This document shows, one piece after another, positions 15,631 to 55,606 of a stretch of DNA of 64,000 bases; position 1 is the first letter of the stretch; each line of letters starts with the position of its first letter. Source of the stretch: Undaria pinnatifida (Eukaryota > Sar > Phaeophyceae > Laminariales > Alariaceae); the NCBI GenBank assembly GCA_012845835.1, contig JABAKD010000007.1, positions 7,962,566-8,026,565 of the forward strand, read 5' to 3'. The position numbers and the translations under genes are program-made. The notes below the pieces were generated by a model that had not been told where the DNA came from, ran no database searches, and saw only the letters and a list, made by a program, of their open reading frames with translations.

Positions 15631-15639
15631 ATTAATTGG

Positions 15640-16640: not shown

Positions 16641-16839
16641 CTGATAACAAAACAAAGCGTGTACCCGGTACTGGCTGTTCAATTATGGCACTGAACGGTA
16701 GTTCCTCAGTTGAGGTCAAGCGGCAAGGTATACCTTTTTTTGGCTCAAAAAGTGCAACCCCTAACGTGAGATGACTCCAATTGCTGCAGTGTCATGGCAA
16801 TGCCATGTCGCATGATTCATGGCAGTGCCATGGCATGCC

Positions 16840-17060
16840 ATGTCAATTCCCATGGCGTGCGATTCAATGTAATGGGCGGCCGTGGAGCCAAAACGGGTTA
16901 CACTTTTATCCAGAAGACAAGCGTGTACCGCCTGCACGGGTGGTGATATCAGTTTGTTGCCGGTGGTGTATTTAAGCGTAAATACACCACCGCCACGCAT
17001 TGGCCTCGAATGAGCTAAACGGGCAGCATTCCAGGAGGTATTATGCGCTTGCCACGAGCA
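16840..17060 (-). repeat. ACCACCGGTGGT unit, second locus
   Basis: Contains GCCGGTGGTGTATTTAAGCG followed by TAAATACACCACCGCC, with the GGAGCCAAAACGGG flank in inverted orientation. Related to 14,940-15,630. Confidence 0.65.
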
Positions 17061-19504: not shown

Positions 19505-20870
19505 AAATTGAAATAAACTCCAGCTAGCTGTGAGATCGAATATGTTGTCGAAACTCATCTATGCAAACTGTATGTATGAGATACTCCGATCGCGCGTATT
19601 ACGGGTTTTGTGTCCTCATTAAGGATATAGGTCGGCGACTCCCCTTGCAACTACAGTGTAGCTATCAGGGTCAACAGGGTGATGTCAGTCAGTCTGTGCG
19701 CGGAAACTATAAAACCCGTTTCTGAGGGGGAAAAAATCTGACAGCTGTAAAAGGAAATGCATCAGTTTATTATCAAGTGAATCCTGTAAGTCGAATAACC
19801 GGTGAGGGGAGGGCGGAGTTTTTAAGAACCTGGCGGCCTGATTTTGATCACAAGGGGGGGGGGCAGCTCAATTTGTGCCTAGAAACTAAAAATCCTTCAA
19901 GGGGATAAATCTGACGGTTTTGGAAAGAATGCACGGGGGAGGGGGGGGAAGGGGCGGGACGGGGGGGGCAGCTCAAAATATATGCGTGCAAAGTATACAT
20001 CCTTTAAGGGGATAAATCTGACGGTTTCGGAAAGAATGCACCAGTTTATCATGTATATCCTGTAAATCGTACAACCAGTGAGTAGAGTGCGGAGTGTTCG
20101 AGGGGGTGGGGGTGGGGTGGGGACGTGGGGGGGTGGGCGAATGGGGGGGGGGGGGGGGGCTTTAGGTCGCATAGATGTAGGGGTTTGCGTTACGCGTGGT
20201 GCTAGGTCTAGGCGATGGTGCGGGTGGTGGGGACGGAGGGAGCATTGAGGGCGGGGGGGGGAGGGGGGATTGCAGCAGCGGCATGGATGGCTCTAGAAAG
20301 ATAATGGAGTGATATACAGGGCGTGGAAGTGTTTATTACTTCTGGCGGATTTCGATATTAGGTGAGGCGTTTGAGCAAGAGCGAGAAGGATGAGGGGGGA
20401 GGGGGGGGGGAGGGGTTTCAAGAGGTTTAGGTCACATATAACATTAAAATACACTCCAGCTGTGAGATCAAGGGTTTGGTCGAAACTCATCTTTGCAACA
20501 TTGTGTGTGATACTCCGATCGCGCGTATTAATCACAAGTGTAGGTGCTTGATACACGCGCGGTGCTAGGTCTAGGCGATCGTGCGGGTGGTGCGGAAGGA
20601 GGGAGCGTTGGAGGGGGGGGGGGGCGGAGGGGATGAATGAAAGCTACGTCATGGATCGCTAGAAAGATAATGACGTGAGAGATTATATCAGCTGGCTGGT
20701 AGTGTTTACTACTCTGGCAGATTTTTTTTATGTTAGGTGGGGCGTTTGAACAAGAGGGATCGGGGGGGGGGGAGGCGGACGGGACATTTCAATATTATAT
20801 GTGCGCGGAAACCATAAACCCTCAAAGGGGACGAATCTGACGGTTTTAGCAAGAAGTCATCCCTTTAAAT
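19505..20870 (+). repeat. Family A dispersed repeat, copy 2 (two heads)
   Basis: Nearly collinear with the 7.2-kb copy, including the second head at about 20,452, the GTCGCATAGATGTAGGGG module and the CAGCAGCGGCATGGATGGCT module between G tracts. The two-head arrangement was therefore copied as a unit. Confidence 0.85.
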
Positions 20871-28790: not shown

Positions 28791-30005
28791 GAAAGGAACC
28801 GACACATAGCAGTAGTAGCTACAATAGGGCAAGCGCTTGGAGGCGGCTATGAAAAGAGCATCGTCGGGAAGAAATTTGGATGTCAATTTCGAAATGATGC
28901 CAAGTCCCTTATTTATTCGTTCAAGCTCTACGTTTGCCAAGATCCAAGAATAGCTCGGGCGTATACCGCCCAAAGTAATAAAAAAAATGCGCACTTATCG
29001 CTTGCCTCGCTCCGCGTCTATCCGTGTTCGCGTCGAGGTGCGGAACGAATACGACAGGGCGAGGGGCGTTGGAGCCGCCCCCCGAAGACGGCGCTCGAAC
29101 GAAGCTATTTGGCCGAGAACTCCAGTTCCGAGAATCCATACTAAGGCCGGGACGGAAAACACTCCTAACCGAATCCCCGAAAAATAAAATGATTACATAT
29201 ATATTTATTCGCCCCCCCCCCCCCACTCCCCCCTCTTCCACTTCAACCCTGCCCGCCCACTTCCCCCCCCTCCCACTCCCCCCCCTCCCATTTTCCCCCC
29301 TCCCACCCACTCCCATCCCACTCCCCCCCCCTCCCACTCCCCCCCCTCCCACTCCTCCCCTCCCGCTCCCCCCCTCCCACTCCTCCCCCTCCCGTCCACC
29401 CCCCTCCCACTCCCCCCCTCCCACTCCCCCCCCTCCCATTCCCCCCCCTCCCCCCCCCCCCCCTCTCAATCCCCTCCCTCCCAACCCCCCCCCTCCCACC
29501 CTCCCCCCTCTCACCCCCCCGCTCCCACTCCCCCCCCCCTCCCACTCCCCCCCTCCCACTCCCCTCCCTTCCACTCCCCCCCCTCTCACTTCCCCCTCCC
29601 CCCCCCCCCGCCTCCCCTATTCTTCAAGCCCCCCACCCCCCCCGCCCCGCCCCCGGCCCCCACGCTCTTATAAACTCCCCCTCCCCTCACCGGTTATTCG
29701 ACTTACAGGATATATACTTCATAAACTGATGCTTTTCAGACGTCATATTTTGTCCCCCTCAAAAACGGGTTTTATAATTTCCGCGCACAGACTGTGACTA
29801 TCATCACCCTGTTGACCCTTTGGTACAATCTACTATTAATACTACACTGTATTTAGTAGTTCTAAGGGGAGTGGACGACCTATATTCTTAATGAGGACAC
29901 ACACCCAGTTATACGCGCGATCGGAGTATCACACACCGCTTGCAAGATGAGTTTCAACGAAATTTTCGATCGTGAGTCACAGATGGAGTGTATTTTCATT
30001 TTTTT
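28780..30005 (-). repeat. Family A + E composite repeat, copy 5
   Basis: On the minus strand: a family A head (30,005-29,690), a ~450-bp G-rich tract (29,660-29,211), then the E module (29,170-28,780) with GCTTCGTTCGAGCGCCGTCT and GGGCGGTATACGCCCGAGCT. The same A, spacer, E order occurs at 58.5-60.2 kb, showing that A and E belong to one element. Confidence 0.75.
29211..29660 (+). repeat. Long CCCTCCCACT polypyrimidine tract
   Basis: About 450 bp of almost pure C/T (A at intervals), a degenerate CTCCCACTCCCCCC unit. It is the spacer of the composite repeat. The minus strand can form many G-quadruplexes. Pro-rich and Gly-rich open frames here are artefacts. Confidence 0.9.
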
Positions 30006-39567: not shown

Positions 39568-41577
39568 CTAGTTTGGGGACGAGGTGCTCGGGAATATGCA
39601 ACTGGAACGATGTGTGATGGTAGCAAAAGGGTTAGGTTTCCTCGCCCCACTGACAGCCTCCGTTGCCTTTTCCTCCCCCGCCGAGGGAGCAGCATCCGGC
39701 ACGCGCGGTGGCGGTAAGAATATATCTGCTGCGGGTGGCCTAGCGACGGTACCACCACCGCCTTGGCCTTGTGTCGCCATTTTCTGCTCTCTGCTTCCGG
39801 GTCCATTCATCACAAGCCGTTCCCCGATCCGTCCCCTTTCTGGCGCCTTCGTCACCGCAAGCTGTCGTCGCTCCTCCTCCCACATTTCGGCTATATTTCG
39901 CGTGTCGGTTCTGGTTTCCTGCCGTGCCTTGCTCGGTTGTACGATGTCTGCCGCCGGCGTCCTAGAGTTGACACCACCCCCAGTGCCACCTTGAGTCGCC
40001 GTCGTCGTGATGCCCTCCTTGCTGCATGGTCTCCCGTTCACAACGAGTCGTCGTTCTTCCTTCTCCCAAAAGGCGTCGATTTTTCGAGTTTCGATTTTCC
40101 TCGTTTCCATGTTTTGTGTTTTGGTTTCAGCTTCCTCCTGTGCCTTCTCTCCCGCGAGGTGTCCACCACGGGGATTTCCAAAGTTGTCGGAAACGATTTT
40201 GCTTATCCGAGGGGCCGCCGATGATAACAGAGACCAATGTCGCGGGGACATATTGTTGTGTTCGTCACCTAGGGCGTCGTCGATACCGCAGGCTGGTGTC
40301 CGTCTTCTCTCCCTCGCGGGAAGGCGTAGACTCGGCCGCAGCAGTGGCGGCTGGTGGTTTTCTCCAATTCCCACTCCTTCCTCGCCATGGTCGAAGAGCT
40401 TCCGATCTTGTTGCTTCTGGTGGTGCTGCTGCCGCTGATGCACCACTGCTTTCGAAATATCATCCTCACTTGCGCCACGGCGAAGGGAGGAGGAGGAGAA
40501 GGAGAATGAAGGCAAGGAGTTGGGTTTGCACGGTTTTGGCGGCGTTGATGAATCACCGATGTCATCGTTTGCACCCATCCGGCGCCTCCGACCATTTTCA
40601 CCTACCCCGCCCACCCCGCCTGCCCCAAGCGATACCACCCGCACCGCTGGTGGCTTATCTACTGCCAGTGACCCCACACCCGCGGCAGCAGCCAAACTAC
40701 CGGTCGAGTGCAGTCCGGTCCCGCACGCCCCCCCGGCCCCAGCTGCCCCCCTTGCCCTGCCTCTCCCAAGCGATGCCCGCGCCGCTATTTTCTTGTCCTC
40801 AACCAGCACCCCCAGACCCGTGGCCGCAGCAGAGCTACCGGTTGAGTTCCGACCGGCTCCGCCTGCCCGCCCTGCCCGCCCTGTCCCGCCCACCCCGCCT
40901 GTCGCAAGGCGTTCCCGCGCCGTCGATTGCTTCTCCACTACTGGTTCCCCCAGACCTGTAGTAGCAGCAAAGCTACCGGCCGAGTGCCTTCGGACCCCAT
41001 CTTCGCCGCACATAGGAGCCGCGTGACCCGCGCTGCTGCTAAGCCGTGCTCCCGCTCCCTCCATGCCATCGTCCGGAGGTTTTTCATCTCTTCGTTTGTG
41101 CAGCGAAACAGAAAAACAGGCATTCTCCTCTCCCGCACAAATTCGCTTGCAGCCCGGTTCGCAAATCAGCTCGCGGACCGGTTCGCGGACCGGCTCACGA
41201 ACCGGCTCGCGGACCGGCGTGTGGACATGATCGTGACTGCTGTTGTCACGCGGCCCTGCTCCCGCTTCCCCCAGCGTGTCGCCAGGAATAGCTTTCTCCT
41301 TTCCTTCGTGCCCCGAAACAGGAAAAAAGACCACGTCCTCCTTCGCGTGGACCCGGTCGTGGCTGTTGCAGGCGTGACGGCGTTGTTCACGATGTCTCGT
41401 GGAGCCCACAGCGGTGAGGTTTGCGGAGTTACGAGCGGCCCCTGACGCCGCCGTTGTCCCCTTGTTGATCGTTCCTTCTTTAGCACCTCCGCGGAGAGAG
41501 AAACTTCTGAGTTGGATAAGGCACGTCTTTTCGTGCGCCTTGATGGCGGCGACTACCGAACGGACACACGCTTGGAC
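39568..41577 (-). CDS. TTLL exon 10 (long repetitive C-terminal tail)
   Basis: 669 codons plus stop after a GGTGGCAG acceptor. Begins VQACVRSVVAAIKAHEKT. It contains four REPV-type tetrapeptide repeats (near 41160-41215), three diverged copies of a ~45-residue unit with the core HSxGSxAAxxGLG (about 40,600-40,980), and two copies of a unit with FWEKEERRL / MWEEERRQL followed by PAADI (about 39,700-40,150). In-frame repeat units with many silent and conservative differences argue that this is translated. The assignment to TTLL rests on the phase match and on a decayed copy of its acceptor upstream. A separate gene is the alternative. Confidence 0.6.
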   Translation of the reverse strand, partial: VQACVRSVVAAIKAHEKTCLIQLRSFSLRGGAKEGTINKGTTAASGAARNSANLTAVGSTRHREQRRHACNSHDRVHAKEDVVFFPVSGHEGKEKAIPGDTLGEAGAGPRDNSSHDHVHTPVREPVREPVREPVRELICEPGCKRICAGEENACFSVSLHKRRDEKPPDDGMEGAGARLSSSAGHAAPMCGEDGVRRHSAGSFAATTGLGEPVVEKQSTARERLATGGVGGTGRAGRAGGAGRNSTGSSAAATGLGVLVEDKKIAARASLGRGRARGAAGAGGACGTGLHSTGSLAAAAGVGSLAVDKPPAVRVVSLGAGGVGGVGENGRRRRMGANDDIGDSSTPPKPCKPNSLPSFSFSSSSLRRGASEDDISKAVVHQRQQHHQKQQDRKLFDHGEEGVGIGENHQPPLLRPSLRLPARERRRTPACGIDDALGDEHNNMSPRHWSLLSSAAPRISKIVSDNFGNPRGGHLAGEKAQEEAETKTQNMETRKIETRKIDAFWEKEERRLVVNGRPCSKEGITTTATQGGTGGGVNSRTPAADIVQPSKARQETRTDTRNIAEMWEEERRQLAVTKAPERGRIGERLVMNGPGSREQKMATQGQGGGGTVARPPAADIFLPPPRVPDAAPSAGEEKATEAVSGARKPNPFATITHRSSCIFPSTSSPN

Positions 41578-43267
41578 CTGCCACCAGGAATTTGACGTGA
41601 ATAAACGACACCAAATCACAGGTTTGCATGGAGGGAGAAGGAGACAGAGGGAGAGAGATAGATGGATGGAGAGAGGGAGGGAGGGAGGGAGGGAGGGAGG
41701 GAGGGAGGGAGGGAGGGAGGGAGGGAGGGAGGGAGGGAGGGAGCGCGATATACATATTTATATATATATGTATATACATAAAGAGCAGGACACACGCTTT
41801 GACCTGCTTCCAGCAACGGGGCGTACGCGTAGGAACGATTTAAACAAGGAACCGATTGTCGACGCATTCCGTTCAGGAGAGGGGCGCACTACTGTAGATC
41901 ATTATGAAGCTCCTCACTTCGTGAGCTCAGAACCTCACCCACCCAATTACTGGCTTAAAAAAGCCCCGAAAAGGGGGACTCGACGGACGATCTCATGGCC
42001 TAGGTATATAACACGATCGTTTGTTTTGTAAATACTGAGATGCATGCTACGATAGAGGCGCACCGTTTCCCTCGCCAAAGATCCTCCCCTAAGGAGCTCA
42101 ATAGCCCACCGAAAAACTGTCTTTTTTAAATAAATTGTGAGTGGTTTCCCGATGAACAAACCCATGCCCTACGAGACATACAACGACACACGTTGCGAAT
42201 GAAACTGACGTCGAATTCCCGATGATTTTGGGTGAAGGAGCTCCGCCACCAAGGAAATATTCTAGCCAAGAGGGCTACCTCTATCGCAGAACCCTTAACA
42301 AAATACTAGCTATACTGTGACGATGTCGGGCAGCTCCGGGGTTGGAGAGCTCCGCGTGCCGAACCCAAATACGGCCGAAAACGTTACCGGTATCATAGCA
42401 CGCGTCTCATAGAGAGGGAGATAGAGGGATAAACAGCGAGAGCGAGAGAGAGGTGGAGAGGTAGAAATTAAGCAAGCGAAAGAGCGGGCGACGCAAGCAT
42501 GCATCGGACGCACATGGGAGAAGCGTTTTATGCGTGTACTGCTGGCTGGGGGCATTGAAACTTGTTCCAAGGCCAAAATTTAGGCCGGTTTTTTGCGAGC
42601 CCTCGCCTATGCTTCTCTCCTCATGTCGGAAACCGCTTACCTTAGATTCTCTGGCTTGACCCGCGTTGATGTTCTTACTCAGGCATCTGGAGTGATCTCG
42701 ACTGTCGTCGTTGAACGGGAATACTAATTCGAAACCGCACCCCCGGGACCCGACGCTTGCGAAGTCACCCATCAATGTTTCCTTCCCGGTCCAATGACCT
42801 CTCTGGCTGTTATTTTGCAGCATCGCTCTTGTCGAAGCACCCTCCACATCTCCTGTCGGCCAGTGCTTCAACCCCGCCGCCCTCCCCGCCCCCTCGTCCT
42901 CTGCCAGCCAAAGTTTCGAGTCCGCCGCCCCTTCCCCCATCGTGTTCCCCGTCAGCCAACGTTTCGATTCCGTCGTCCCCCACCCTCCATCACTCGCTTG
43001 TTTTCCGCTATCACCTCCGCCACCGTTAACACTGTCGTGGTCGGCGGTAGTGGACTTAACAGGTAACAACAGCCAGGGGGGCGATGACACCGATGGAGAT
43101 GTTGGGCGAGTCCGGGATGATGTCGGTGGCGGCACCTCCCGTACGCTCATCGGGACGGGACTTGAATGCTTCCGCAGCAGCTCCGGTCTCCGATTATTAA
43201 TATTCGGTCTCTGATTATGATCTGGTCGCTGATACGGTCGCTTTTGCGGCTGTTGTTGTTGTTGCGC

Positions 43268-43308
<41 letters not shown>

Positions 43309-46300
43309 GCCGCTGCTGCGGGTGCTTTGACTGAGAATATCCCTCTCGGCCTTCCTCCCGGCCTTCCTGTCCATGGCGGTGTTCTTGGTGCTGCGGCTGC
43401 TGCTGTTGCTGACGTTGCTGCCGCCGCTGCTGCTTAGCAAAATCGTCGCTGCCACGCCGTCGGTGGTGGCGGCGTTCCTGTTCTTGCGCCGGTGGTGAGC
43501 ACGAGGAGGACGACCCTAGGGGCCGGCAGTACCCAGGAAGGCGTTGCGCTCTCGTGCTTTTCGCAGCTCGGGACGCCTCTTCCGCTAGGCCAGCCGACTC
43601 CACGTCGACGAGGTCCAACAGATCCGAAATTAGCGGAAGTTTCACCAGCCTGCGCTTTATTTATTCGAGGTTTCGGGCGTGCGGGTTGTGTATATATTAC
43701 CAGGGTTGGAATGGGTGGGAATGGAGGAAGGTAGCGCTTGGGGGTGTTACAGCGTTTCTTTTTTTTATGCACCATTCCGCGTCGACGATGTCCAGGAGAT
43801 CCGCGATAAACGGCGGGTTCACCCGTTTGCGCTTAGTTGTTCAGGGTTTCGCGCTTGTGTACGGCAGATATGTTATTTTCGAGGTACAGCAGCAGGTCCG
43901 GTCCGCAATTGACCCTTGTACCTCTGCCACTTTTATCCAACTTTAGATTAATGTGGTTTGTTTGTCCCCAAAAACGAGGGTGCAGTTCCATAGGTGTTGA
44001 TTGCTGTTTCGCCAGCCTGCATTTGTTCCTTCGGTGCGTTTGTATTACGGAGAGACATTTTCAATGCAAAAGAGAGGAAGGGCAGGAGGGAACGCTTGCT
44101 GAAGCTGCGTTTCTTGCGTGTACCAGGCATATCGTACTACTAATGTCCATGTAATACAGACTCACCTATCGGTATCTTCGTCAAGTCCTAGAGCAGGGGA
44201 ACAGTTGATCTCTATTAGGTGTGGCCTATCATAGCGGCGTCGACGAGGGCAACAGCAAGCAGTGGGGGAAAGAGAGTTCCAAGGAGGGACCAGGGGAGGG
44301 AATGGGGATCGGTAGGGGTGGAAGGTGGTGAGAGGAGGTCGGGGGGGGGGCGGTGCGGGGAGGGAGCGGGGAAGGTTGGGAAGGTGGGGGGAGGGTCGGG
44401 TAGTCTACTTGAACTTTCATGCGACAGGTGCACGTCAAGATGCGTCGAAGTAAACGAGGCGGTGGCATCGCTTATTTCTTCGGTTCCTTGTCCTGAAAGC
44501 TAAACTACCGCGTCCGATCGCTTAACCTCCGTTGCGCCCTGGAGGGAAAGCATGTCGAAATATTTGATTGGTAGGGTGTGGGTCCGACAGACAGCTTAAC
44601 TGGATGAGAGGCAGGAGAAAAGCTATCAAAGGCAAAAAACGCCTTTTGATCACCTGGAAAGCCGATTGTCCACCATGATGTCGAATCCGAAGAGCTCGAA
44701 GCAGCTCGCGTGGCCCTTTCCGCTGGGAACGACGTCCGCCAACGGCAAGACGGAGAGGCAAACGAGAGAGCGTATCTTCGTCCACAGTCGAGACCATTTT
44801 TCTGTCCCGTTTGCCGTCGACTCTTCTACCCTGCACGCGCAGAAAGAGGGATAAGGAGAGGTGGGAGTGTATTCGCGGGAGACAAAGGAAGAGAGAGACA
44901 GAGAGGAGTAGAGAGGGGGGGGCGTGCAGGGTGGGGTGTACTAATTTAATCATGGCCGTAGTCGTATGACCGTAGACCCTCGCATTCCACAATGCCTGGA
45001 CGGAGCTCGTCGGGTGTTCACTACCAGGCAGAGGTAGGAATTGCGTGCACCAAGTACGGGCAGCGGGAGGCACAGACACAGGGCGACAGAGTCAGAGAAA
45101 GGGGCAGGTAACTGATCCGCGAATTGAACAGCTGCTTTTAGCTGAAGATCTTTTCTTTCACGCTTTACCGCGCGTTGGGCGTGCGAGAATGGTGGCGGAG
45201 AACCTCTGGTCCTGTACGAAAGGCAAGCGCCTAACTCGGACGCAGAGTTCGATGAGGACGGATGCTGCGGCAGGTTGGGAACGTAAAGGTTATGAGCCTC
45301 GTCACGTGAGGAGTGCTATACTTTCCGTGAATATTGACTCCTGGGGGAAAATGGACGGTGGACGGACGTCCGATACCCAATCCCACGGCCTAAGCTGCGT
45401 GGTGATATCTCGCCTGACAACGTCTTTAGCCCTTAGACCTGGGTCCCAATTATTTACGGGCCATTGTACAGCGACCCAAGAAACGACTCTTTCTATATTT
45501 CGTAGCACCCAGGAACAGTGCCTAGCACTACGAGTGTCACCATGCTGCCCGTGTGCCAACAGTAGCTCCTTTACACTGCAGTAAGGACACACCTCCGTAC
45601 CCCAGCGGCCCGGATTGCCTCGCGTGGTCGATATGCTGTGCTCGTCATTTTTTTCCCCGACAAAAATTTGCTTGTGAAGCCCCAAAGAGGTTGACACCCC
45701 GATAAGCGTGAATCACGTTTGTTTGCATCACGCACCACCAGTGTTCCGACGAAAAACAAATATCTAACCTGTTGCAAAAAGTTGCTCCCAAGTAGTACGT
45801 CCAAGAACCGCGAGTGCCCTTCTAAAAAGGGGTTGGTTCACAGCATGGAACAACTAGTATGCAAACGTATTTGAATCGCGTACCAGCGTTGGAGCTTCTT
45901 GAGAGTCCACTTGCAGCCCCCACCAATGACGTCTTTCTCCTGAGAAGCAAAGGGTGACCTCTTGTTGATAGAAGAGTTTGTCAGGTGCCCGAACAGATCG
46001 TCGTGCGGACTTCCCTTGTACCTGCGGTTGTTACGTAGCCGGTCGGGGATGTTCTCTGATTAATGATTGACGCCGCTTGTAGATGGACGGGGGTGGAGCT
46101 TGCCTATTTGAAAAGCATTCGGTGCTTTCGTTTCATTGTGTTCGGCACTCCCCTGTCCGCGTCGCGCGCTCTCCGAATAATGATGGACGATTATTGTAGA
46201 TGGGGGGGGGGGGGGTGGGGACTGTCTACTGTTAAACAAGTTTATTGCTTATCGTTTTGTCCTTTCATTTATGCCCGCCATAGGCTATGACCTATCGGAA

Positions 46301-49300
46301 TCGAATTTTCGGACACCAAGAGTGACCTCTTGTTGATGGAGGAGCTGGTCAGGTACCCGAACAGGTCGTCGTGCGGACTTCCCTTGTACCTGTCATAAGG
46401 TTAGGGGGCGAAACTAGGCTCAAATCCATTGTGTTATCGATAAGACTTCTTTCCGCATTACTCGGCATTTTTAACAACGTTAAAAACGTGTAAATGGTTT
46501 GTCTTTACTTCGAGCATAACAAGTACAAATGGGGCAAAAAGCACGGAAGCAACTTTTTCTGTATCCTCCATCCAGCTAAAAAACATACATTAAAACACCC
46601 TGGTGCAGACAACCGATTCAAACGCTGATACGAACGAACTCTAGGTCCATTTTTTTTCCAGCAACCGATTCAAATGCCGACATGCACTTCTGAAGGCTCG
46701 CCCAGTGTCCGTATGCTAAACGGGTGCTAAGGACCTTCTAAGGTGCTTACTTAGAGGTGGCGAAGCGCACGATGCCGTCCCTGTAGAGATGCACCGTCAT
46801 CGGATGGAGCGAAGTCACCACGGCATAACTGGCAGAGAGGGACCGTCAAAGGAGCAAAACAAAACTGCAACGAATTACACGCAGGGCTGTGGCACCGAAA
46901 CGACATTCCTGTCGTGGGACGTTCAAGGCAGTCACATGGTTTCAAAAAACCTCGGGCAGAGATATGTTACCCAAACTGCATATCTTAGACGAGGCTTGCA
47001 AGAGAGTACAAAAAAACCTACAGCAATTTGTGGACAGGGGATAAGTGTCGCTGTAGAGTTCAACAGTAGCGGGACGTTCAAAAGCGGTCAAAATTCTGCA
47101 ATAAATGGTGGGTACGGGGTCCAAGGCGTAGAACCGTGTCTATAACCACTGTTAGCGGGCTTGGGACGTATGATAGCCCTGCACGATGGATGGCCACGGG
47201 TGTATACGATTCGTTCGGTGCTGTTTTTTCCAAGTTTCGTTTTCCACTTTTTCCAAGTTTTCGTTTTCACACACGCGTGCTACGATAGAGATATCACTTT
47301 TCGTCTGAAATTTTTCCCGAATGACGCAGCTCCTTAAACCAATTTCGTCGAAACTAGCCAAATTTTTTTTCATGATTATCGCTGTGTATCTAGGCCATAC
47401 GAGAATTTTCCATCGGGTATGTAGCAGTTTTATTTTTCCCCAAATCAGTCATTGGGAGAGGTTTTAAGCTCCCAAATTGAGGGGTAGTATTAAGAAAAAA
47501 AGTGGTGCGCCTCTATCGTAGAACGCGCCCACTCGCAGCCGTTAGTCACCTTGTAGTCTCCCACCGACCGCGTCATAGCTAGCGATGCACGATGGACGGC
47601 CAAAACAATACACACAGCGTTGTGCTTCTATGTCCTTGCGTTTTCAGATTTTTCAGACTTTCAAACGATTGGCAACCACTCACATATGTCAGCCAGCCTC
47701 GTAGTCCTCAACCGTTATCCGGTACGCAACGTACGATAGCACTACACCAAGGACGGTCACCGGTAGATAGTTCCGACACAAGTGCAAAACATGTTTTTTC
47801 TCCGAGTTTTTTTTTTCTTTTCTTTTCCTTTTTCATCTAAATCACTCACAGGCGTAAGTCAGCCTTGTAGCCCCCAACCGTGAGCGGGTTCGGAACGTAG
47901 CGCTGCACGATCGAAGGTCGGTCGTAGGCAAGCTCCTCCAGCTCCCGCAAGAGATATACCCCCCGACCCCTGGACGAGTCGCTCGGTTTGACGATCCACA
48001 TTGCACCCCCGTCGCCCGAGTCGCCACCCTTTTCGCCCTTATCGCCCACCCGGCCAGCGTTTCCTGCGCCGCCTCCGCGACAATGTGCACATCGTAAATC
48101 ACTCCAACACCCGCCCTCCGATCGACGTGTTCACAACGCTACGATGCAACGCCCCAAATTAAATAACTATTTCACGACATTCATTGTTATCCGCCGCCGA
48201 AGCAGACGATATAGAACAAGCATGTGCACATGTGTCCTTTAAATGGGGGCTTCCCTTGTTTTCCTCTTTGTTTGTTCGGGTGACTGTGCGTGATTGGCGT
48301 CGAAGCGCGTGCTGCACATTGTTGGGTAGAAAGACTAATAATTATATTGTATTGGTGCATACAGAACACGTATTCTCTTGTCTCTTTTCGTGAGTTACGT
48401 CAGGCGAAAAGCGGGCCGCATCATACACAGAGGAAAACCACCTATCACCCGATCCTTTTTCCCTCCCTGCGTGCACGAGCACCCGCTGGAAGGTTCATCT
48501 GCAGCAAGGCAATACTTAGATCCCACCCTGCTACCTATACTACAATCTCCCCTGAACATGGATTAACACGTAACAGTTTAACTTAGGGGGGAGGGGTGGG
48601 TGGAGAAGGGGGTTAAAGTACGAGCAAGGGCGGTGATAGGACTGAGGTGCGGAGTCGGGGTTGTCGAGCGTGAACAACAGATACGTAGTTTCCTGGTATA
48701 CTTTTGGTTTTCAAGCAGTACGGGATAGTTCACCGCAGCCCGTAGCACCGTTCTCTTACGTGTTGTTGCCGCGACTCACGTACTGCTTTGTATCTGGCAG
48801 TAGCTTTTTGTTCCGTCGGGACGCATCTACAGTTGTTTCAGTGATCCGGGGCTAGATGTCAAGAACATAGCTAAATTGGAAATGCCATCATCATCCGTTC
48901 CTTGGCAACGCGTCTCTGAAATGAGCTAATGTAGGAACATCAACATCATCCTCATTTTTCCATTTCTTGGTCAAAGCTCTCTCACGAAGAGCTTACCGCA
49001 GGATTCTGGGTGGGTGAGCCATTGGTCAGAAATCGGCGCCAACTGTGGGGAAGCAATGCTTTCGGGGACGCCCTTTTTCTTTGCTGCTGCTGCTGCTCCG
49101 CCGTTAGTACAAGAACGGTGCTGTCAGCACGATATGTGTTCACGCGTTGGTTAGGGGAGGGCAGGAAGAGGGGAAATAGGGAGTCAGCGGTTATTTTTTA
49201 TCGGGTTTGGGGCCCTCTACGCGACATACATCTGCTGCATTCCGCCGTCGGTACAAGGACGGTGCTATCGATGCGGTGTTGTAGACGTAAGTACCCCTAC

Positions 49301-52300
49301 TTACTGCTGATGCGAGTTGCTAATGCTTTTTTTTCAAGCCCGACTATCACTTCGTCTTTTCAGATGGGAATCCGATTTAATGCTTCCAACATGTCCGCGC
49401 CGTTCAGGCTTACACACACGTTGATCAGCCTCGCCGGTCGCGAGATATTGCAACCGAAACGCAAGAGCCTGCCAAACGAAGCACGTTTTCGTTTGTGACG
49501 ACCCTTCTACTAAGTTTTTGTTTCAGATTTGCCTGACCCCAGCGACAACGTGGCAATCTTCAGTAGTTGCCGGATACATGCGACTCTAGCGTATTCGCCT
49601 CCTTTCTACTTGGTCGCGACATGAAGTCATTTTTTTTTGCGTGTTTTTAATATCTTTGCCAGTCAGAATTGTTCATCTTACCGTAGTAGGAGCGGTACAA
49701 CACGATGTGTACGTGCATATTTTGGAACGTGCCGTTCGTGGCCAGTTCGACCCTAACGCGCGGTAAAACTTTGCAGGATGTCGTCAACTAACGTTAAACA
49801 GCCGACTAATTTTCTAGGAGACGGTACCAACGCGTCTCAAGTACAGGAGCCACTTCCCACCACGGGCATTGGTTAACAAGTAGGCCCCGAAAACCGGGTA
49901 AATTTAGTTTTCGTCCTCAAATTCTGCTCGATTTGTCTCCATATTCCTCGCTAAATATCAGAAACCCTTCTGATAACATTTCCACCCCAATATGACGTCA
50001 TGAAGCGTCCCGAAACGTATTCTCCAGCTCAAACACTGTAAAATGCAACTGACAGATTGATTGAAGCAGGGCGATATATCCTACTTTTGCTATCCCACCG
50101 CAGCTCTTTACAATTTACAGAGCTACTCCATCACCTCCACTACCCGTTTTAGAAGCTATTTTCGCACCAAAGCTTATAGAAGGGGGCATGGTCTACAACG
50201 AGGACCTCAGACTTCCTCCAAGTCGTCATATGTTCAGCAAACAAATCAAGCTTCCGTCCAGGGCAGCTAGAGTGACAGTTAAATGGGATATTCACTTTTA
50301 TATCCACAGGTTTATTGCGGGGTGGGTTGGGAGAGGCGTCAGTACAAAAGAACGGTGCTACCAACAATTTGATTGGAGGTGGGGGAGGCGAAGCTCAGCA
50401 CAAGGATGATGCCGACAGTAGGGTGTTTGCGGGATGCCAAATGTGATTGGGTAGGAACATTTAACAACAGTATGGAAACCGACGAAGGTCGAATAGCCCC
50501 GTTTCGACCAAACCCACAAAATATTAGGTTAGAACAGCCATATTTGTCCGTTTTTGCCCATTTTTTGGCGGATTGGGTTAGCCTTGGGCTTCGACGTTCG
50601 TCCGTTTAAATGATATTATTATATAAATGATATTATTATACCAGGTATGTTTTTCTACCCAACAAAATTTTGGTATCCCGCAAACACTCTAATGATATCG
50701 TATGCACACGTTTACGCGGAGGGAGGGGGGAGGGGGGGCGTACTCATTTGTTGCTTGTCTTAGTCATTTGGCCATTGACAACGCATCCCTTTCTAGACGG
50801 AGCACCGTTCCTACTCCTAGTAGAGACACCTTCAACGTTTGGGCGCTCTTCACGCTTCTTCCAAATATTACATAGAAACTGTTTGTTTATCCTATCCCCC
50901 TCCTATTTCGCCGTCTGCGGCCACCATCTATCTCCTAGGATAGCGATCGTTTTCTCGCTACTCTCTAGTCTAACTCTTCCATGTCACATACGTCTAATTT
51001 CCTCATCTCCTCCAACGCACCCCGTTCCTCCTTGTGAATTTCACATTATCCTACTATGTGAGTCCTACCCTCTGTTGTTGTGCCACACGGGCACATATTA
51101 GAAGCCACGTCCTCCTCCCGACTACTGGTATACCTCTTTCTTCTTCATGGTAGGTCCAGGTCCCCTACACGAAATCGCATTTTCTACTTTTTCGCGTTGT
51201 CCATTGAGCCGTGCAGATACGTTTTCATTCCAATATCTTCCCTCAAACCCCCGTATATCTCTCAAGTGCTTCCTCTGACACCATATTTCTTAGCGTTTGC
51301 CTTTCCCTTTCTTCTCCTCATTCTTTTACTTATGTCTTGTACCCGCCAAACTTCTCTGTAGACAGTTCCTCTTCTTGGTCTCCCCCTAAATCCTTCCAAA
51401 TTTTTCGACTACGTTATCTTATCTTATTCCAGCTCGCCCTTTAGTTACTTCCTCCCACACAGCAGTTTCAACTATGGCTGGCAACCTCTTTTCTGGCATA
51501 TTCTTTACTTTATATTGCCATTTCAACATCGCACGCCTCTATTTGTTTTAATTGGGTACATTCCTAGTTCTGCTCTTAAAACTGTACCAGGTATTACTCA
51601 TCGTATTTGAGCATCGTAGTATCTTTTTAGCTGCTGTCATCCGCACTTTTTACACTTGTTTTACGAATTTCGCGTTCCCTCCACGTACTTCCCCTGCATA
51701 CTCTAATTTTGGTACAATCACATCCAGCAGGAAACCTATTTTTATCCTAGTGTCTAGGTGCGAAGGAGGAAAGGGGTAGGGGTCAGCAAGAAACGCCGCT
51801 GTCATTTGCGATACGCACGCTTTTTATCGCAGTGCACAGGATGTATACGTGTATGCCGTGTCGCGACGGCACTCACTTGCTGAAGTCGGGTGAATGCGTC
51901 GATGAACCTGGTGTACTCCGTGGGAAGCATGTAGCTGTCCGGGTGGAAGGCGTAGACGTCCCCGTGCACCGCCTTCATCTTACGAAGCACTCGCAGCAGA
52001 AAATCTTTCCTGCATCGGCGAAAAAATGAAGTTTTCATGGTTGCCCCGAAAAGTAATGGGGGGGAGGGGGGTTCCGTGAAAAAGGAAGCTGTGTAATAGT
52101 AAAAATTGAACGGGGGTTTTCTTTGTCCTACGGGGTCCCCGCAGAGGAAAATATTTCCTGCAGCGAAAGGGAAGGATAGTCTTTCCGTACGAGAAGCGAC
52201 GATGGTGCGGGAAGCACCAAAAGATTGCTCGAAAAATCTGGAGCCGCGCGCATGAGTGGTATAAGTCGTGCAGACAGCACACCTACGGATATCTGAATCT

Positions 52301-55300
52301 TCTCGCTAGGCTACCAACCGCGAGCAGGAGCAGCAAACAAAAAAACGGCGACACGCATACATGTACAATTGAGACCCTCCTATATCACCGGCTGAATGGT
52401 ATTGGGTGCCCGCTTTAGCGCCTGTGAAATCGGTTGGCACAGATGGGAACAACTAATTCCTGGCAGAATGGGGAAGCAGCACCGGTTGCCACTATAGTGC
52501 CAGTATTTCCGGCTGAGACAGACCAGCACTCTAGAGGGACCACTACGGAACCTTCACCTGGTGATCAAGGTTGAGCGCGGGAAGTGGTTGAGCCGCTGCC
52601 CCTCTCGCACGTCGCGGTACTCCGACGGCTTGAACCGTCCGGACCTCCACTGAAAGTTCCACTGGCCCAGACCACAGACGCGCGATACAGAGTAGGGCAG
52701 GTGTTGTAGCCAAAGTAGAGAAAAGTGATGGTATGATGGTATCTTGGTATCTATATTCGACGCGTGCTACCGTAAGGGTAGCATCCGAACTGTCCCAGGC
52801 TCCTCAGTTGAAGAACTCTGTAAAACAACGATGCTAGGGCCTGCCATGGGCCGATGGTGCGAACCGGGCCGGGCAGGGGCGATATGAAATAACTCCTGGA
52901 CCGGGCCGGGCCGGGTCGTGGCCCAGAAAATGAAAACTTGAAAAAATGTAAACTGGATGGACCCGGCCTGGCCGTGACCCATGAACTGAATATTTGATGG
53001 GGCGGGTCGGGCCGCTGCCCAATAAATGTAGGCTTCATATGGGCCGCTCTACCCAACCCATGAGGCGGTCAACATATTTTCACGGGTCGGCCCATGAGAC
53101 GGCCCACGCGTTTTCCCGAGGCGTTTAGGACCAAGAACCATGGTATTTGGTGTACTGTAAAATACCAGTAAACGAAAACATGTAACGGCTGCGAATCGGT
53201 ATTTAATATGTACTTGTAATATGTAATAATCAGCTGATAGTAATAAACAACAATTTGCAAAAATGTCAGAGTGCATCTTTTAGTACGGGGGAAAAAAATT
53301 CACGAACCAGGTCACAGACATATAAGGCCCGCGTCTCATGGACCTCGCTGCGAATGCCATGGGTCGGGCCAGGGCGGGACGGGAAAAAGTAAAATTTGAC
53401 GGGCCGGGCCGGGCCGCGGCCCATCCTCTGAAAATTTGATGGAGACGAGCCAGGCCGCGGTTCATGTTCTGAACAATTGATGGGCCGGGCCGGGCCGGAC
53501 CGCGGTCCACTTCGTGGACAAAGGTTGGGCTTGGCCGGGCCGGTTGATGGGCCGGGCCGGGCCGGACCGCGGTCCACTTCGTGGACAAAGGTTGGGCTTG
53601 GCCGGGCCGGACGGCCAGGCCTGGCCCAACCCCGGGCCGGTCCACAAGCATCGGCCGATGACAAGCCCTAAAAAGTACAAGATCAGCCGGATGAAGAATC
53701 CCATGGGGCATGGATAACTATAGAAAAACACGCCTCGCCTTCCGAACATGTTGGGTACTTCCTCAGTTGCGGAACCCCATACGTTGGCACGGCTCGTCCG
53801 CTTAGGAAACTCGGACGCGAACCCGGGCTGTTCCACGGCGATCCCCGCCGTGGTGTAGAGTCAGTACTTGTGTGGAATGCGGCACTGGCTACAATATCGA
53901 TAGTAACATAAATAATTCAACAGCAATGGGACCGAGTTGGAGATGAATTAAACTCCGTACCCGTGTGCGCCAAAATGGCAATCATGATAGCCTCATTACA
54001 CCCAGATTAACCTCTGTTTGGCTTGAGAGGGGAATTATGTCAAAAGGAATAGACGATTACAGCATCAGAGACATGAACCAGCCTGAGCTGTTGGGGTAGG
54101 CGGGGTGTCCCAGTTGTAATATGCGGAGCTGAACCAAGCGTGCACAGGGTGGTGATATCTGTACTGCTGCTCGGTATTGTTACGATACTCGCTTGATAGC
54201 GGGTCGCACTCGTTGTGTTTTTGTTGTCGCTTTATATGTGGAAAAAACAAATCTAAGCAGCTGAACAGATGGAGCTGTGAGGTGGAAACAATGCTAAAAT
54301 GACAAGGTCCACCGTCAGTGGCGGAACGATGTACCCGATAGGGACAGCTTACGCTATACCTACAATGGGACCCGAAGGGTGCGCCAGCTAGCGTTGGGCT
54401 GCGAAAGCAACTGAGTTAAATCGACACACGACGCGTATGAAAATACGTGGAAGTATGGTGAGCTAAAGCTTTATTTTTCCCCATCCGCCGGAGGATAAAA
54501 AAAAAAAAAAAAGTACCCTGGTCGTTTTGCGACGGAACACAGACAGCGCTGGGGGCTATATGAATACAAAAAAAAAGAACTAGTGGCATCAATAATATAA
54601 ACGTGGTACTGGTGTTTACTAGTACGTACACACCTGCCCTGAAATATCTGACCTTTCCCATGTGTACACGATTTCCCTCCTTAACTTTGTCAGCCCCGTG
54701 CACACGCTCCTAGTCAACAAAGTGATCCAGACCATGCAAATCATACGGACAATGGATACGCCTGCCCTCGAAACACTTATTTGCCCCCCCATCCCATATG
54801 TCCACGAGATCCCTACTCACATCATCAGCCCCATGCACACGCGCGTCCCACTCTGTCCACCCCGGCCGCTGCCCGAGCACCATCCTCACCGCCGGGGGCG
54901 TCTGTTCGGGAATGACGTAAATTACTTGTTGTGAACTCGCCGCCGCGCCTCTGTCGGCGCCATTGCACCCCTCGTCGCTTGCTCCTTCAGTAGCTCCGCC
55001 CCCGAGATCCATACCGGAACCCGCTCCCCCCCCAGCTCCGTTGAGCTCCTCGTGGTTTTCCCCTTCCTTAGCTTCGTCGTCGACACCCTTGCAGGAACCA
55101 GCCACCCTCTTTTCTCCGTGACCTGTAGCTCTTTCCTGGCTCGGGTTTCGATCTTCTGCTTCTTTGACATCGCCCCCGACATCCTTACCGGAACTTTCCA
55201 CCCACCCTCCTCCATCTCGATTGCTCGTGATTCTTTGTTGGCGTGTGTCCCGATCGTTAGCACCGGTACTGGCAATGTGGCAGGCGTTCTCGCCGCCGAG

Positions 55301-55606
55301 TTCGAGGTCACCGCTAAGCACCGTGTCGCTGGATTGTATACAACCTTTGGGGTATCCGCAATGGTTATCGGGTGCCACCGGTGCCGGGATTTTCACGCTG
55401 CCTGTCGCCGCCGCCGCGGCAAAGCTACGACTATCGTCTCGCCCAGCGCCGAATCTCCTCCCTTTGAGATCGCCCAAGTCGCAATCAACTCCGTCCTGAG
55501 AAGTTCTGATCGCCAAGTGATCGCCTAGATGGCAATGAACTCCGCCCGGCAAGGGCCCAGTTGCGAATAGCTCGTAGGGTAATGATTCTTGGTCCTTCTT
55601 CGCCAT
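39568..55606 (-). CDS. Tubulin tyrosine ligase-like (TTLL) protein, probable tubulin polyglutamylase; ten-exon gene
   Basis: Proposed join (minus strand): 55606-54821, 52661-52558, 52009-51877, about 48028-47850, 46828-46751, 46021-45884, 44830-44654, 44225-44166, 43649-42641, 41577-39568, giving about 1,557 residues. TTLL enzymes are ATP-grasp ligases that add glutamate (or other amino acids) to tubulin tails in axonemes and cytoplasmic microtubules. Family motifs appear in the right order: LNHFPRS, TRKD, LPTEY, WIVKP with the ATP-binding lysine (about 355), SSRGRG, QRYV, DLRLYA, GIVRFATSK, HLTN, CFELFGFD and LIEIN, whose Glu (about 537) should bind Mg. The order and the RGRG signature resemble TTLL5/TTLL4-type polyglutamylases. 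Reading phase is consistent at every junction except exon 3 to exon 4. The roughly 1,000-residue tail is Gln- and Gly/Ala-rich. The start Met and the final stop are the least certain parts; an upstream exon or later splice is possible. The gene looks intact. Confidence 0.88.
41664..41742 (+). repeat. GGGA microsatellite in TTLL intron 9
   Basis: About 19 uninterrupted GGGA units between exon 10 and the decayed copy of its acceptor. Pro-Ser frames on the minus strand are artefacts. Confidence 0.95.
41787..41850 (-). pseudogene. Decayed copy of the TTLL exon 10 acceptor boundary
   Basis: In intron 9. Plus-strand GGACACACGCTTTGACCTGC matches exon 10's GGACACACGCTTGGACCTGC (19 of 20), covering the CAG acceptor and the VQACV codons; similarity then fades. 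It is separated from the true exon by a GGGA microsatellite. Confidence 0.6.
42641..43649 (-). CDS. TTLL exon 9 (end of TTL domain, Gln-rich tail)
   Basis: 1,009 bp after an AAGCGCAG acceptor. Begins LVKLPLISDLLDLVDVESAG, which matches the helix closing the TTL domain. About 280 residues of low-complexity tail follow: Gln/Arg-rich, with an uninterrupted CAG-type run near 43270-43312, then Pro/Ser- and Gly-rich parts and tandem KxWLxxDxxGxG-like segments. I end it at the strong donor AAG|GTAAGC because the phase (0) matches exon 10. If unspliced, the frame would run on to a stop at 42407. Confidence 0.75.
43781..43880 (-). pseudogene. Decayed copy 1 of the TTLL exon 9 acceptor boundary
   Basis: In intron 8. 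Plus-strand GTCGACGATGTCCAGGAGAT followed by CCGCGATAAACGGCGGG parallels exon 9's GTCGACGAGGTCCAACAGAT and CCGAAATTAGCGGAAG. The similarity continues through the acceptor into the upstream intron (TTTCG...GTGTACGG). Confidence 0.7.
43985..44050 (-). pseudogene. Decayed copy 2 of the TTLL exon 9 acceptor boundary
   Basis: In intron 8, about 200 bp further upstream. Plus-strand GTTTCGCCAGCCTGCATTTG matches the exon 9 acceptor region GTTTCACCAGCCTGCGCTTT. The match is short, but it keeps the CAG acceptor on the minus strand. Confidence 0.55.
44166..44225 (-). CDS. TTLL exon 8 (metal-binding motif)
   Basis: 60 bp between TATGATAG and GTGAGT. Encodes PHLIEINCSPALGLDEDTD, the family's PWLxEVNxSPSL motif, with His in place of the usual Trp; Glu and Asn here coordinate ATP-Mg. 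It is too short to be found except by motif and by the matching phases (2 in, 2 out). Confidence 0.88.
44654..44830 (-). CDS. TTLL exon 7
   Basis: 177 bp between a GCGTGCAG acceptor and a GTGATC donor. Encodes KWSRLWTKIRSLV, a hydrophobic stretch, then GHASCFELFGFDIMVDNRLS. CFELxGFD is the conserved segment leading to the metal-binding Glu-Ile-Asn of exon 8. Phase 2 in and out; AG plus G of exon 8 makes Arg, giving NRLSRPHLIEIN across the junction. Confidence 0.9.
45884..46021 (-). CDS. TTLL exon 6
   Basis: 138 bp between an ACCGCAG acceptor and a GTACGC donor. Encodes YKGSPHDDLFGHLTNSSINK, then a spacer and GGGCKWTLKKLQR. HLTN, the following Ser-x-Asn-Lys and the KWTL segment are TTLL signatures. 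Phase 2 at both ends; TG plus G of exon 7 gives Trp. A near-identical copy of its 5' half lies upstream at 46316-46394. Confidence 0.9.
46305..46396 (-). pseudogene. Recent partial copy of TTLL exon 6
   Basis: By hand comparison 65 of 71 bases match exon 6 (46316-46394 against 45945-46024), including a usable CAG acceptor and an open frame (GYLTSSSINKRS). The conserved HLTN becomes YLTS, removing the His and Asn. No good donor follows, and the KWTL half is absent. It lies in intron 5 upstream of the real exon. An alternative exon cannot be excluded without RNA. Confidence 0.85.
46751..46828 (-). CDS. TTLL exon 5
   Basis: 78 bp between CTCTGCCAG and GTAAGC. Encodes YAVVTSLHPMTVHLYRDG followed by IVRFATSK, the TTLL strand pair normally read as VLVTSxDPLxxYLYxxGLxRFAT. 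Enters in phase 2 from exon 4 and leaves in phase 2; AA plus G of exon 6 gives Lys. Confidence 0.9.
   Translation of the reverse strand, partial: LCRGDFAPSDDGASLQGRHRALRHL
47130..47200 (-). pseudogene. Decayed copy 3 of the TTLL exon 4 donor boundary
   Basis: In intron 4, farther downstream. The minus strand reads CCATCCATCGTGCAGGGCTA then ACGTCCCAAGCCCGCTAACA, matching exon 4's codons for PSIVQRYVPNPL. The match is lost before the donor. Confidence 0.55.
47525..47603 (-). pseudogene. Decayed copy 2 of the TTLL exon 4 donor boundary
   Basis: In intron 4, about 150 bp beyond copy 1. The minus strand reads CCGTCCATCGTGCATCGCTA ... GACTACAAGGTGACTAAC ... GCGAGTGG, aligned to exon 4's PSIVQRYV to DLRL stretch and its donor. 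Confidence 0.65.
47675..47770 (-). pseudogene. Decayed copy 1 of the TTLL exon 4 donor boundary
   Basis: In intron 4. The minus strand reads GACCGTCCTTGGTGTAGTGC ... CTACGAGGCTGGCTGAC ... GTGAGTGG, parallel to exon 4's last ~75 bases including its GTGAGT donor. The reading frame is not conserved. Confidence 0.65.
47850..48063 (-). CDS. TTLL exon 4 (ATP-binding core)
   Basis: Encodes WIVKPSDSSRGRGVYLL, then PSIVQRYVPNPL and GGYKADLRL: the nucleotide-binding Lys, the glycine-rich RGRG loop and the Q-R-Y and D-L-R motifs of the ATP-grasp fold. The donor GTGAGT cuts within a Leu codon; CT joins T of exon 5 to give DLRLYA. The 5' end is unresolved. The best-looking acceptor (CGGCGCAG, exon from 48063) needs one extra base from the previous exon. 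AAG sites giving starts at 48037 or 48028 keep the phase but lack a pyrimidine tract. A small unseen exon in intron 3 would also solve this. Three decayed copies of its 3' boundary follow in intron 4. Confidence 0.85.
50736..51776 (-). mobile_element. LINE 3' fragment inside TTLL intron 3
   Basis: Reverse complement of the 9,840-10,922 LINE segment: the shared tail AATGAGTACGCCCCC, the CPCGTT zinc-knuckle start, the DRWWPQTA-type segment and the VIVPKLEYAG segment are all recognisable on the minus strand. It begins further 3' than the first copy, as usual for 5'-truncated LINE insertions. It is oriented with the host gene. The frame is broken. Confidence 0.75.
51877..52009 (-). CDS. TTLL exon 3
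   Basis: 133 bp between a GATGCAG acceptor and a GTGAGT donor. Encodes KDFLLRVLRKMKAVHG, then FHPDSYMLPTEYTRFIDAF, matching the TTLL segment where a Pro-x-Thr/Ser-Tyr-x-Leu-Pro motif precedes the ATP-binding lysine. Ends in phase 0 after two Gln codons. A decayed copy of its 5' boundary lies upstream in intron 2 (about 52,050-52,160). Confidence 0.88.
52050..52160 (-). pseudogene. Decayed copy of the TTLL exon 3 acceptor boundary
   Basis: The minus-strand sequence TTTCGCTGCAGGAAATATTT and what follows parallels exon 3's GATGCAGGAAAGATTT start. Translated, CRKYFPLRGPRRTKK corresponds to exon 3's RKDFLLRVLRKMK. It sits in intron 2, just upstream of the true exon. Similarity fades after about 50 bases. 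Confidence 0.6.
52558..52661 (-). CDS. TTLL exon 2
   Basis: 104 bp after a CAG acceptor. Encodes WNFQW, a linker, then QRLNHFPRSTLIT and the first two bases of Arg. The NHFP motif is diagnostic of TTLL proteins. The donor is GTGAAG. It starts in phase 0 from exon 1, and AG joins G of exon 3 to make TRKD, a near-invariant TTLL junction sequence. Too short to stand out as an open reading frame; found by family motif. Confidence 0.88.
52850..53110 (+). repeat. GGGCCGGGCC array, block 1 (TTLL intron 1)
   Basis: Degenerate units built on GGCCGGGCCGGG with AAATTTGA-type spacers. Open frames read Ala-Arg-Pro-Gly-Pro repeats and are artefacts of base composition. Confidence 0.8.
53330..53650 (+). 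repeat. GGGCCGGGCC array, block 2, with a ~70-bp direct repeat
   Basis: Same motif as block 1. Within it, TTGATGGGCCGGGCCGGGCC, GGACCGCGGTCCACTTCGTG and GACAAAGGTTGGGCTTGG occur twice in tandem (about 53,478-53,547 and 53,548-53,612), essentially identical, so the last duplication is recent. Part of intron 1. Confidence 0.85.
54404..54500 (+). repeat. Solo copy of the short repeat nested in the 9.7-kb LINE
   Basis: Near-identical to 9,694-9,785 over the GCAACTGAGTTAAATCGACA core, the ACGACGCGTATGAAAATACG part and the CCATCCGCCGGAGGATA end, followed by an A run. It lies in intron 1 of the TTLL gene. Confidence 0.6.
54622..54712 (-). pseudogene. Decayed copy of the TTLL exon 1 / intron 1 boundary
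   Basis: On the minus strand, the stretch from GAGCGTGTGCACGGGGCTGA through AGGGCAGGTGTGTACG aligns base for base, with a few gaps, to exon 1's end and the first ~80 bases of intron 1 (54,740-54,835). The copy's donor no longer reads GTGAGT. It lies directly downstream of its source in the same orientation, as expected of a tandem duplication about 125 bp long. Confidence 0.7.
54821..55606 (-). CDS. TTLL exon 1
   Basis: 262 codons from the Met at 55606 to a GTGAGT donor. The first ~225 residues are low-complexity, rich in Gly, Asp, Glu and Ala. The end enters the TTL domain with IYVIPEQTPPAVRMVLG followed by GWTEWDARVHGADD, matching the family's N-terminal strand and helix before the first Trp-rich segment. 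Ends in phase 0, which fits exon 2. The open frame runs on past the donor to 54710, but the family match continues only if the donor is used. No promoter element was recognised upstream, and the start could be a later Met or lie in an unseen upstream exon. Confidence 0.75.

Follow-up and report, generated by a model that had tools for sequence, protein, structure and literature searches.

The window analysed here is a stretch of 64,000 nucleotides from Undaria pinnatifida (assembly GCA_012845835.1, contig JABAKD010000007.1, positions 7,962,566 to 8,026,565). Its minus strand carries a predicted tubulin-tyrosine-ligase-like (TTLL) gene of ten exons, running from 55606 down to 39571, with 1586 codons without a stop. 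In this gene, several introns hold decayed copies of their own exon-intron boundaries. The gene model is a prediction, rebuilt from splice signals and reading frame. The exons were placed as follows:

Exon 1, 54821..55606, minus strand, ending at the donor GTGAGT
Exon 2, 52558..52661, minus strand, without a convincing boundary copy
Exon 3, 51877..52009, minus strand
Exon 4, 47850..48115, minus strand, 5' end uncertain and given at one in-frame AG
Exon 5, 46751..46828, minus strand
Exon 6, 45884..46021, minus strand
Exon 7, 44654..44830, minus strand, without a boundary copy
Exon 8, 44166..44225, minus strand, without a boundary copy
Exon 9, 42641..43649, minus strand, with a GTAAG donor
Exon 10, 39571..41577, minus strand, an open frame without a Pfam match

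All exon ends were GT/AG, except for the 5' end of exon 4, where several in-frame positions are possible; four starts were tried and the conclusions were unaffected. The 623-residue protein from exons 1–8 and the start of exon 9 matched Pfam TTL (PF03133) with an E value of 1.1e-64. Among the solved structures in PDB, a 382-residue core matched TTLL7 at 3.1e-41 and TTLL6 at 1.8e-40. By its TTL domain, the predicted minus-strand gene is assigned to the TTLL (Pfam TTL) genes. Past this domain, exons 9 and 10 were modelled from open frames and splice signals only. A Pfam scan of unspliced single-frame stretches gave no match, whereas the spliced protein did, and we attribute the blank result to wrong frames.

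The copies are given below with their sources. Fill is the share of the step between two copies that is covered by the match; a head-to-tail duplication is expected to leave similarity along the whole step.

54624..54715, minus strand, exon 1 donor copy in intron 1 (source 54853-54752, offset 138, 71/91 identical, fill 0.74)
52121..52185, minus strand, exon 3 acceptor copy in intron 2 (source 52036-51973, offset 149, 48/61 identical, AG kept, fill 0.44)
47674..47794, minus strand, first copy of the exon 4 donor, in intron 4 (83/116 identical with GTGAGT retained; fill 0.72 at an offset of 163)
47530..47601, minus strand, second copy of the exon 4 donor (donor changed to GC; 56/72 bases shared with the exon)
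47120..47204, minus strand, third copy of the exon 4 end, now eroded (55/78 identical, score 126 against a shuffle maximum of 120)
46959..47105, minus strand, exon 5 acceptor copy in intron 4 (source 46949-46807, offset about 153-156, 92/136 identical, fill 0.94)
46312..46392, minus strand, copy of the exon 6 start in intron 5 (offset 368, 71/81 identical, gapless)
43725..43875, minus strand, exon 9 acceptor copy in intron 8 (source 43699-43535, offset 176, 106/151 identical, AG lost, fill 0.86)
44006..44115, minus strand, possible second copy of the exon 9 acceptor (z 1.9, score 139)
41779..41838, minus strand, borderline copy of the exon 10 acceptor in intron 9 (source 41608-41554, offset 230, 42/55 identical)

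The copies of splice boundaries in their own introns are real. In a matrix test, each of the 18 boundaries (exon edge plus 30 intron bases) was compared with at most 500 bases from its own intron and from the introns of the other boundaries, with low complexity masked. The own-intron scores of 5/18 boundaries exceeded all 288 pairings of a boundary with another intron (maximum 100): 157 for the exon 1 donor, 123 for the exon 3 acceptor, 174 for the exon 4 donor, 315 for the exon 6 acceptor and 214 for the exon 9 acceptor. This outcome was the same under all four exon 4 starts. Scores of 150 between a boundary and the other side of the same intron were judged to reflect the 30-base overlap of query and target. 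Against 300 dinucleotide shuffles, the z scores of the five firm boundaries were 12.3 (exon 1), 5.5 (exon 3), 15.6 (exon 4), 22.7 (exon 6) and 14.4 (exon 9), and the further exon 4 copies had z scores of 9.9 and 6.2. When exon 4 and its first two copies were combined into a profile, it recovered part of the third copy (47197-47146, E 0.01). We also scanned the whole window on both strands with 16 of the 18 boundaries (all except the exon 9 donor and the exon 10 acceptor). The adjacent intron ranked first for four of the five firm boundaries; for exon 1 it was second, behind a stretch at 29201-29600 that lies in a simple-repeat region.

Other boundaries gave weaker signals. The exon 5 acceptor scored 86 with the short matrix query, a level equalled or passed by 1.7% of the off-diagonal pairings; with a longer flank the score rose to 142, whereas none of 200 base shuffles exceeded 108, and a separate alignment gave 149. 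The exon 10 acceptor was borderline, with an unmasked score of 116 against a shuffle maximum of 111 and an ordinary masked score of only 62. Between exon 10 and this copy, just upstream of the exon, intron 9 has a GGAG microsatellite (41664-41743). The second exon 9 copy was weak to moderate (z of 1.9 in the shuffle test, score of 139 in the repeat survey described below). For the exon 6 donor, the matrix score of 90 was at a level reached by 1.7% of the off-diagonals and the longer-flank score of 98 fell within its own shuffles. In the matrix and longer-flank tests, eleven of the 18 boundaries had no convincing copy, leaving 7/18 with one, the borderline case counted.

Most of what the first-pass annotation of this DNA had proposed about the copies themselves held. 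It had claimed that at least six of the nine introns carry boundary copies, and copies were firm in introns 1, 2, 4, 5 and 8 and borderline in intron 9. It had placed all of them in gene orientation; the firm copies are on the gene strand, and antisense scores of boundaries against their own introns were at most 78 throughout. Its list of copied boundaries (exons 1, 3, 4, 6, 9 and 10) stood for five, with exon 10 failing the masked test, and it had overlooked the exon 5 acceptor.

The nearest copies of the firm boundaries lie at offsets of 138-368 bp on the same strand. For the first copies of exons 5, 9, 1 and 4 the fill was 0.94 (step of 156 bp), 0.86 (176 bp), 0.74 (138 bp) and 0.72 (163 bp). 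The next exon 4 step is 157 bp with a fill of 0.56, so that exon 4 forms a regular 163/157 bp array. Similarity along 72–94% of steps of 138-176 bp is the mark of head-to-tail tandem duplication and supports such an origin for the copies of exons 1, 4, 5 and 9. The proposal that short tandem duplications span the splice sites is supported at these four exons, and fits less well at exons 3, 6 and 10. The contribution of the boundary duplications to intron length is not small, because the steps add up to 163 + 157 + 156 = 476 of 1021 bases in intron 4, and one step makes up 176 of 516 bases in intron 8.

The spare copies have decayed as had been suggested. Mismatches between exon and copy, pooled over eight pairs (three of them sharing exon 4 and not independent; exon 5 left out), fell on first, second and third codon positions in 34/173, 38/170 and 56/173 cases (Fisher p 0.007). 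Such a third-position excess would follow if most changes tolerated by the exon are silent while the copy changes freely. Stops in the frame of the exon were present in 3/8 copies read, and frame-breaking gaps in the exon 4 and exon 9 copies. Comparing the two parts of each match gave a mixed picture: similarity was lower on the intron side than on the exon side for exon 1 (0.77/0.80), exon 9 (0.67/0.72) and exon 10 (0.71/0.83), but not in four other pairs. An assembly error is an unlikely source of the copies, which differ from their sources by 12–32%.

Similar repeats are found all over the gene. In a survey of same-strand repeat pairs within about 550 bases, with no array region of the gene left out, 27 direct pairs scored at least 110 and 30 at least 100; ten local dinucleotide shuffles gave 0-4 and 2-8 pairs at these two thresholds. 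The gene as a whole is therefore rich in local duplications. Only five inverted pairs were found at either threshold, all of them intronic and two in a GC-rich array. Among the 30 direct pairs at 100 or more, 11 were in exons only, 10 in introns only (five of these in the GC-rich array of intron 1) and nine crossed a boundary. The main offset was a multiple of three in 9/11 exon-only pairs, and the other two pairs scored lowest of the 11 (108 and 102). Such offsets may be slightly favoured by coding periodicity. One exon-only repeat, in exon 10, is the same kind of event inside an exon. Repeats of the gene away from the boundaries include:

40601..41011, minus strand, in-frame coding tandem repeat in exon 10 (unit of 138 bp, 46-residue repeat)
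46157..46215, minus strand, intron-only duplication in intron 5, a copy of 46098-46039 just upstream of exon 6 (offset 117, 44/58 identical)
52840-53640, GC-rich GGGCCGGGCC array in intron 1, with two identical 67 bp tandem copies at its end (53477-53610)

The intron-only pair (46157-46215 and 46039-46098) sits in the stretch between exon 6 and its copy. One of the five inverted pairs is an inverted repeat in intron 3 (50416-50465 and 50644-50694).

That splice boundaries are a special place for the underlying process was not supported, and here the analysis departs most from the first-pass annotation. The same repeats occur within exons and within introns, and when all pairs were shifted circularly along the gene, with and without the GC-rich array, straddling of boundaries was not significantly enriched among all pairs scoring at least 100 (9/30 against 5.73 expected, p 0.125), nor with one pair per array (7/21 against 3.97, p 0.106). 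With the four exon 4 starts, the p values of re-runs stayed within 0.006.

We think it quite probable that the copies were left behind by ordinary local tandem duplications, with units mostly of about 130–230 bp, which are indifferent to exon boundaries and are sorted by selection. Such duplications hit the gene repeatedly, as judged by their outcome here, in introns, in exons and across boundaries. Selection would then retain those that leave the protein intact. A duplication in a coding exon would be kept if in frame and in a loose coding region, and one inside an intron would be free to persist. A boundary duplication would be kept if splicing still selects, of a doubled site, the upstream donor or the downstream acceptor. 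Since that site stays in use, the spare boundary would land in the intron, in gene orientation, and then decay. Continued use of the protein-preserving splice site would also explain the rule noticed at the outset, that donor copies lie downstream and acceptor copies upstream of their exons. At the DNA level the cause might be, for example, slippage during replication, or staggered breaks that were filled in and joined.

A number of results weigh against this explanation. The fill was low for exon 3 (0.44 of a 149 bp step) and exon 10 (0.26, 60 bp in 230). For exon 6, an 81 bp match with sharp ends covers only 0.22 of a 368 bp step, and this copy requires a later insertion or a different mechanism. 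The exon part was not consistently better conserved, the intron part being more similar in four pairs: exon 3 (0.92/0.70), two exon 4 copies and exon 6, the last three with at most 10 intron bases each. One shuffle reached a score of 151, so that single weak repeat pairs may be chance. On the side of the explanation, offsets of 120-240 bp made up 18/30 pairs in the gene, with several larger offsets resembling two steps. Against it, in a second survey, in and outside the gene with four array regions left out, 14/24 direct pairs in the gene were of this size against 5/30 outside, where the size peak is thus absent, and 4/11 of the inverted control pairs were in the same range. Finally, without the GC-rich array 9/25 pairs straddled a boundary against 4.84 expected (p 0.053; 0.052-0.058 on re-run), which leaves room for a mild bias toward boundaries or for easier detection there.

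In a rival reading, a process tied to boundaries or to transcription would preferentially duplicate exon edges, and the introns of this genome would grow mainly by copying their own ends. The copies at 7/18 boundaries, the borderline one included, the presence of copies at both ends of intron 4 (steps of 163, 157 and 156 bp within its 1021 bp) and the p of 0.053 speak for this process. The p values of 0.125 for all pairs and 0.106 for one pair per array, and the same repeats inside exons and introns, speak against it. A preference for boundaries is moreover not needed, because pairs whose exon side is constrained should remain recognisable longer. We consider the boundary-tied process quite unlikely. 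The copies might alternatively serve as functional alternative exons or alternative splice sites. GT or AG can still be read in the alignments of 7/10 copies, if a shifted base is allowed for exon 1, and the copy of exon 6 has no gaps and an open frame. However, 7/10 retained dinucleotides are unremarkable at about 68–88% identity, 3/8 copies have stops, the exon 4 and exon 9 copies have frame-breaking gaps, and the exon 6 copy spans only 78/138 exon bases and alters the H and N of an HLTN stretch common to TTLL6 and TTLL7. This makes a splicing function very unlikely. Tandemly duplicated alternative exons in the strict sense were set aside, as no complete in-frame copy was found among these partial copies with their stops and gaps.

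Mobile introner-like elements or another dispersed repeat could also supply similar sequence, and repeats are common elsewhere in the window. Yet the firm boundaries matched only their own intron, with all 288 off-diagonal scores among the introns of this gene at 100 or below, and the matches continue across the exon edge into coding sequence, so that such a source is hardly credible. Chance similarity or low complexity could account for the exon 10 copy, which fails the masked test, or for the second exon 9 copy, which fails one test. For the five firm boundaries, above all 288 controls and all shuffles, it is refuted, and as a general explanation its probability is negligible. Exon 6 alone calls for a separate judgement. 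Its copy begins exactly at the CAG acceptor and ends inside the exon, without a match beyond either end, and it may be a short templated insertion, copied elsewhere in the intron during break repair, instead of a tandem duplication. The 81 bp at 88% identity with sharp ends, one of them exactly at the acceptor, suggest this origin, and no residual match was found between 45943-45600 and the sequence following the copy. On the other side, a tandem copy later split by an insertion would look identical, and the 287 bp between the copies have no clear second place in the window. For this one exon we regard a templated insertion as a serious candidate, just short of an even call. A reading of the exon 6 case as intron creation was dropped, as 358 bp of intron 5 separate the copy from the intron's edge.

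That tandem duplication can give rise to intron sequence has been published before (PMC4974935, PMC2891723, PMC3443670). Intron gain by this route is established, and as of 2012 it was described as the only proposed mechanism of intron gain shown in vivo (PMC3443670). What is new here is how plainly one gene records the duplications. Among the matches listed, judged by titles and the starts of abstracts, no paper dealt with a single gene in which several introns carry decayed copies of splice boundaries. A close parallel is a potato RdRp gene with an intron gained by tandem genomic duplication. As in the TTLL gene, the duplicated segment covered parts of an intron-exon structure that was already there, and one intron of the potato gene also contains another tandem duplication, of 83 bp (PMC4974935). 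In the potato gene, however, splicing uses the duplicated boundary, which gave rise to a new intron and an exon piece, whereas the spare boundary of the TTLL gene appears to be unused and to decay.

In the Rogers model, an intron originates when an exonic segment with AGGT is duplicated (PMC3443670, PMC2891723); introns from AGGT duplication were treated by Hellsten et al. and by Gao and Lynch, as cited in PMC4974935. The TTLL gene shares with this model intronic sequence derived from exons via tandem duplication, but here existing introns were lengthened. The units of exons 1, 4, 5 and 9 carry both intron and exon sequence and are not purely exonic, so the intron predates the duplication, and intron gain of the Rogers type was rejected for these four exons. 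For Drosophila, introns from tandem duplications were reported at near intron pairs; duplicated coding sequence turned into intron there, as in the TTLL gene, and tandem duplications were described as frequent in populations (PMC2891723). According to the authors, the duplication footprint in Drosophila has possibly been lost, while in the TTLL gene it is visible at 68–88% identity. Among small duplications in Drosophila, duplication-linked sites in introns were reported as fewer than expected (PMC6380325). In Tetrahymena, LRR genes have arrays of 90-bp exons (PMC6564038). Their repeat units hold exon and intron sequence, as here, but whole exons are multiplied and used there, and only boundary pieces were copied in the TTLL gene.

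A candidate cause was described from induced breaks in mouse and human cells, where small tandem duplications form at staggered breaks via Pol alpha-primase and CST; the same source gives small tandem duplications as the commonest short insertions (under 100 bp) in the human genome (PMC8355091). It offers a general route to short head-to-tail duplications; the units in the TTLL gene are mostly 130–230 bp. From the offset counts, one might speculate on a link of the unit size to nucleosome or Okazaki-fragment length. For comparison, autosomal introns of Ectocarpus have a median length of 524 bp and 20.1% transposon sequence (PMC12477816).

Selection holds the exon side of a boundary copy, so that an old duplication stays readable there which would be lost earlier if it lay wholly within an intron. 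If such marks are common, they could be counted genome-wide, both to gauge the share of tandem duplication in intron length and to show how splicing tolerates duplicated sites. Intron length is often attributed to transposons. That the genes of this lineage were lengthened by recurrent tandem duplications of ~130–230 bp, as a main mode of intron growth and with boundary copies as the readable record, seems unlikely, though it keeps some chance. A second gene on which to repeat the test was found in none of the stretches scanned, other parts of the window being left unscanned. Nine stretches scanned besides the spliced gene (eight open frames and exon 10) had no Pfam family at 0.01. For a 168-residue part of the protein, the search for relatives in viral contigs gave 8 pattern stretches with 0 confirmed. 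In genome contigs, 1/79 stretches was confirmed, a distant one from a bacterial bin with 30% identity in its best segment, and it was not used.

The window has other repeats. Exon 9 contains a CAG-type glutamine-coding repeat (43270-43319). At 3300-4700 and 14800-17000, short palindromic units (GGAAGCTTCC-like and CCATGGCATG-like) form arrays with self-matches on both strands. The stretches 7200-8430 and 19500-20730 contain local repeats whose offsets are alike (322/370 and 286/368), with common peptide stretches in their frames, and because of these similarities the two regions are probably two copies of one repeat element.

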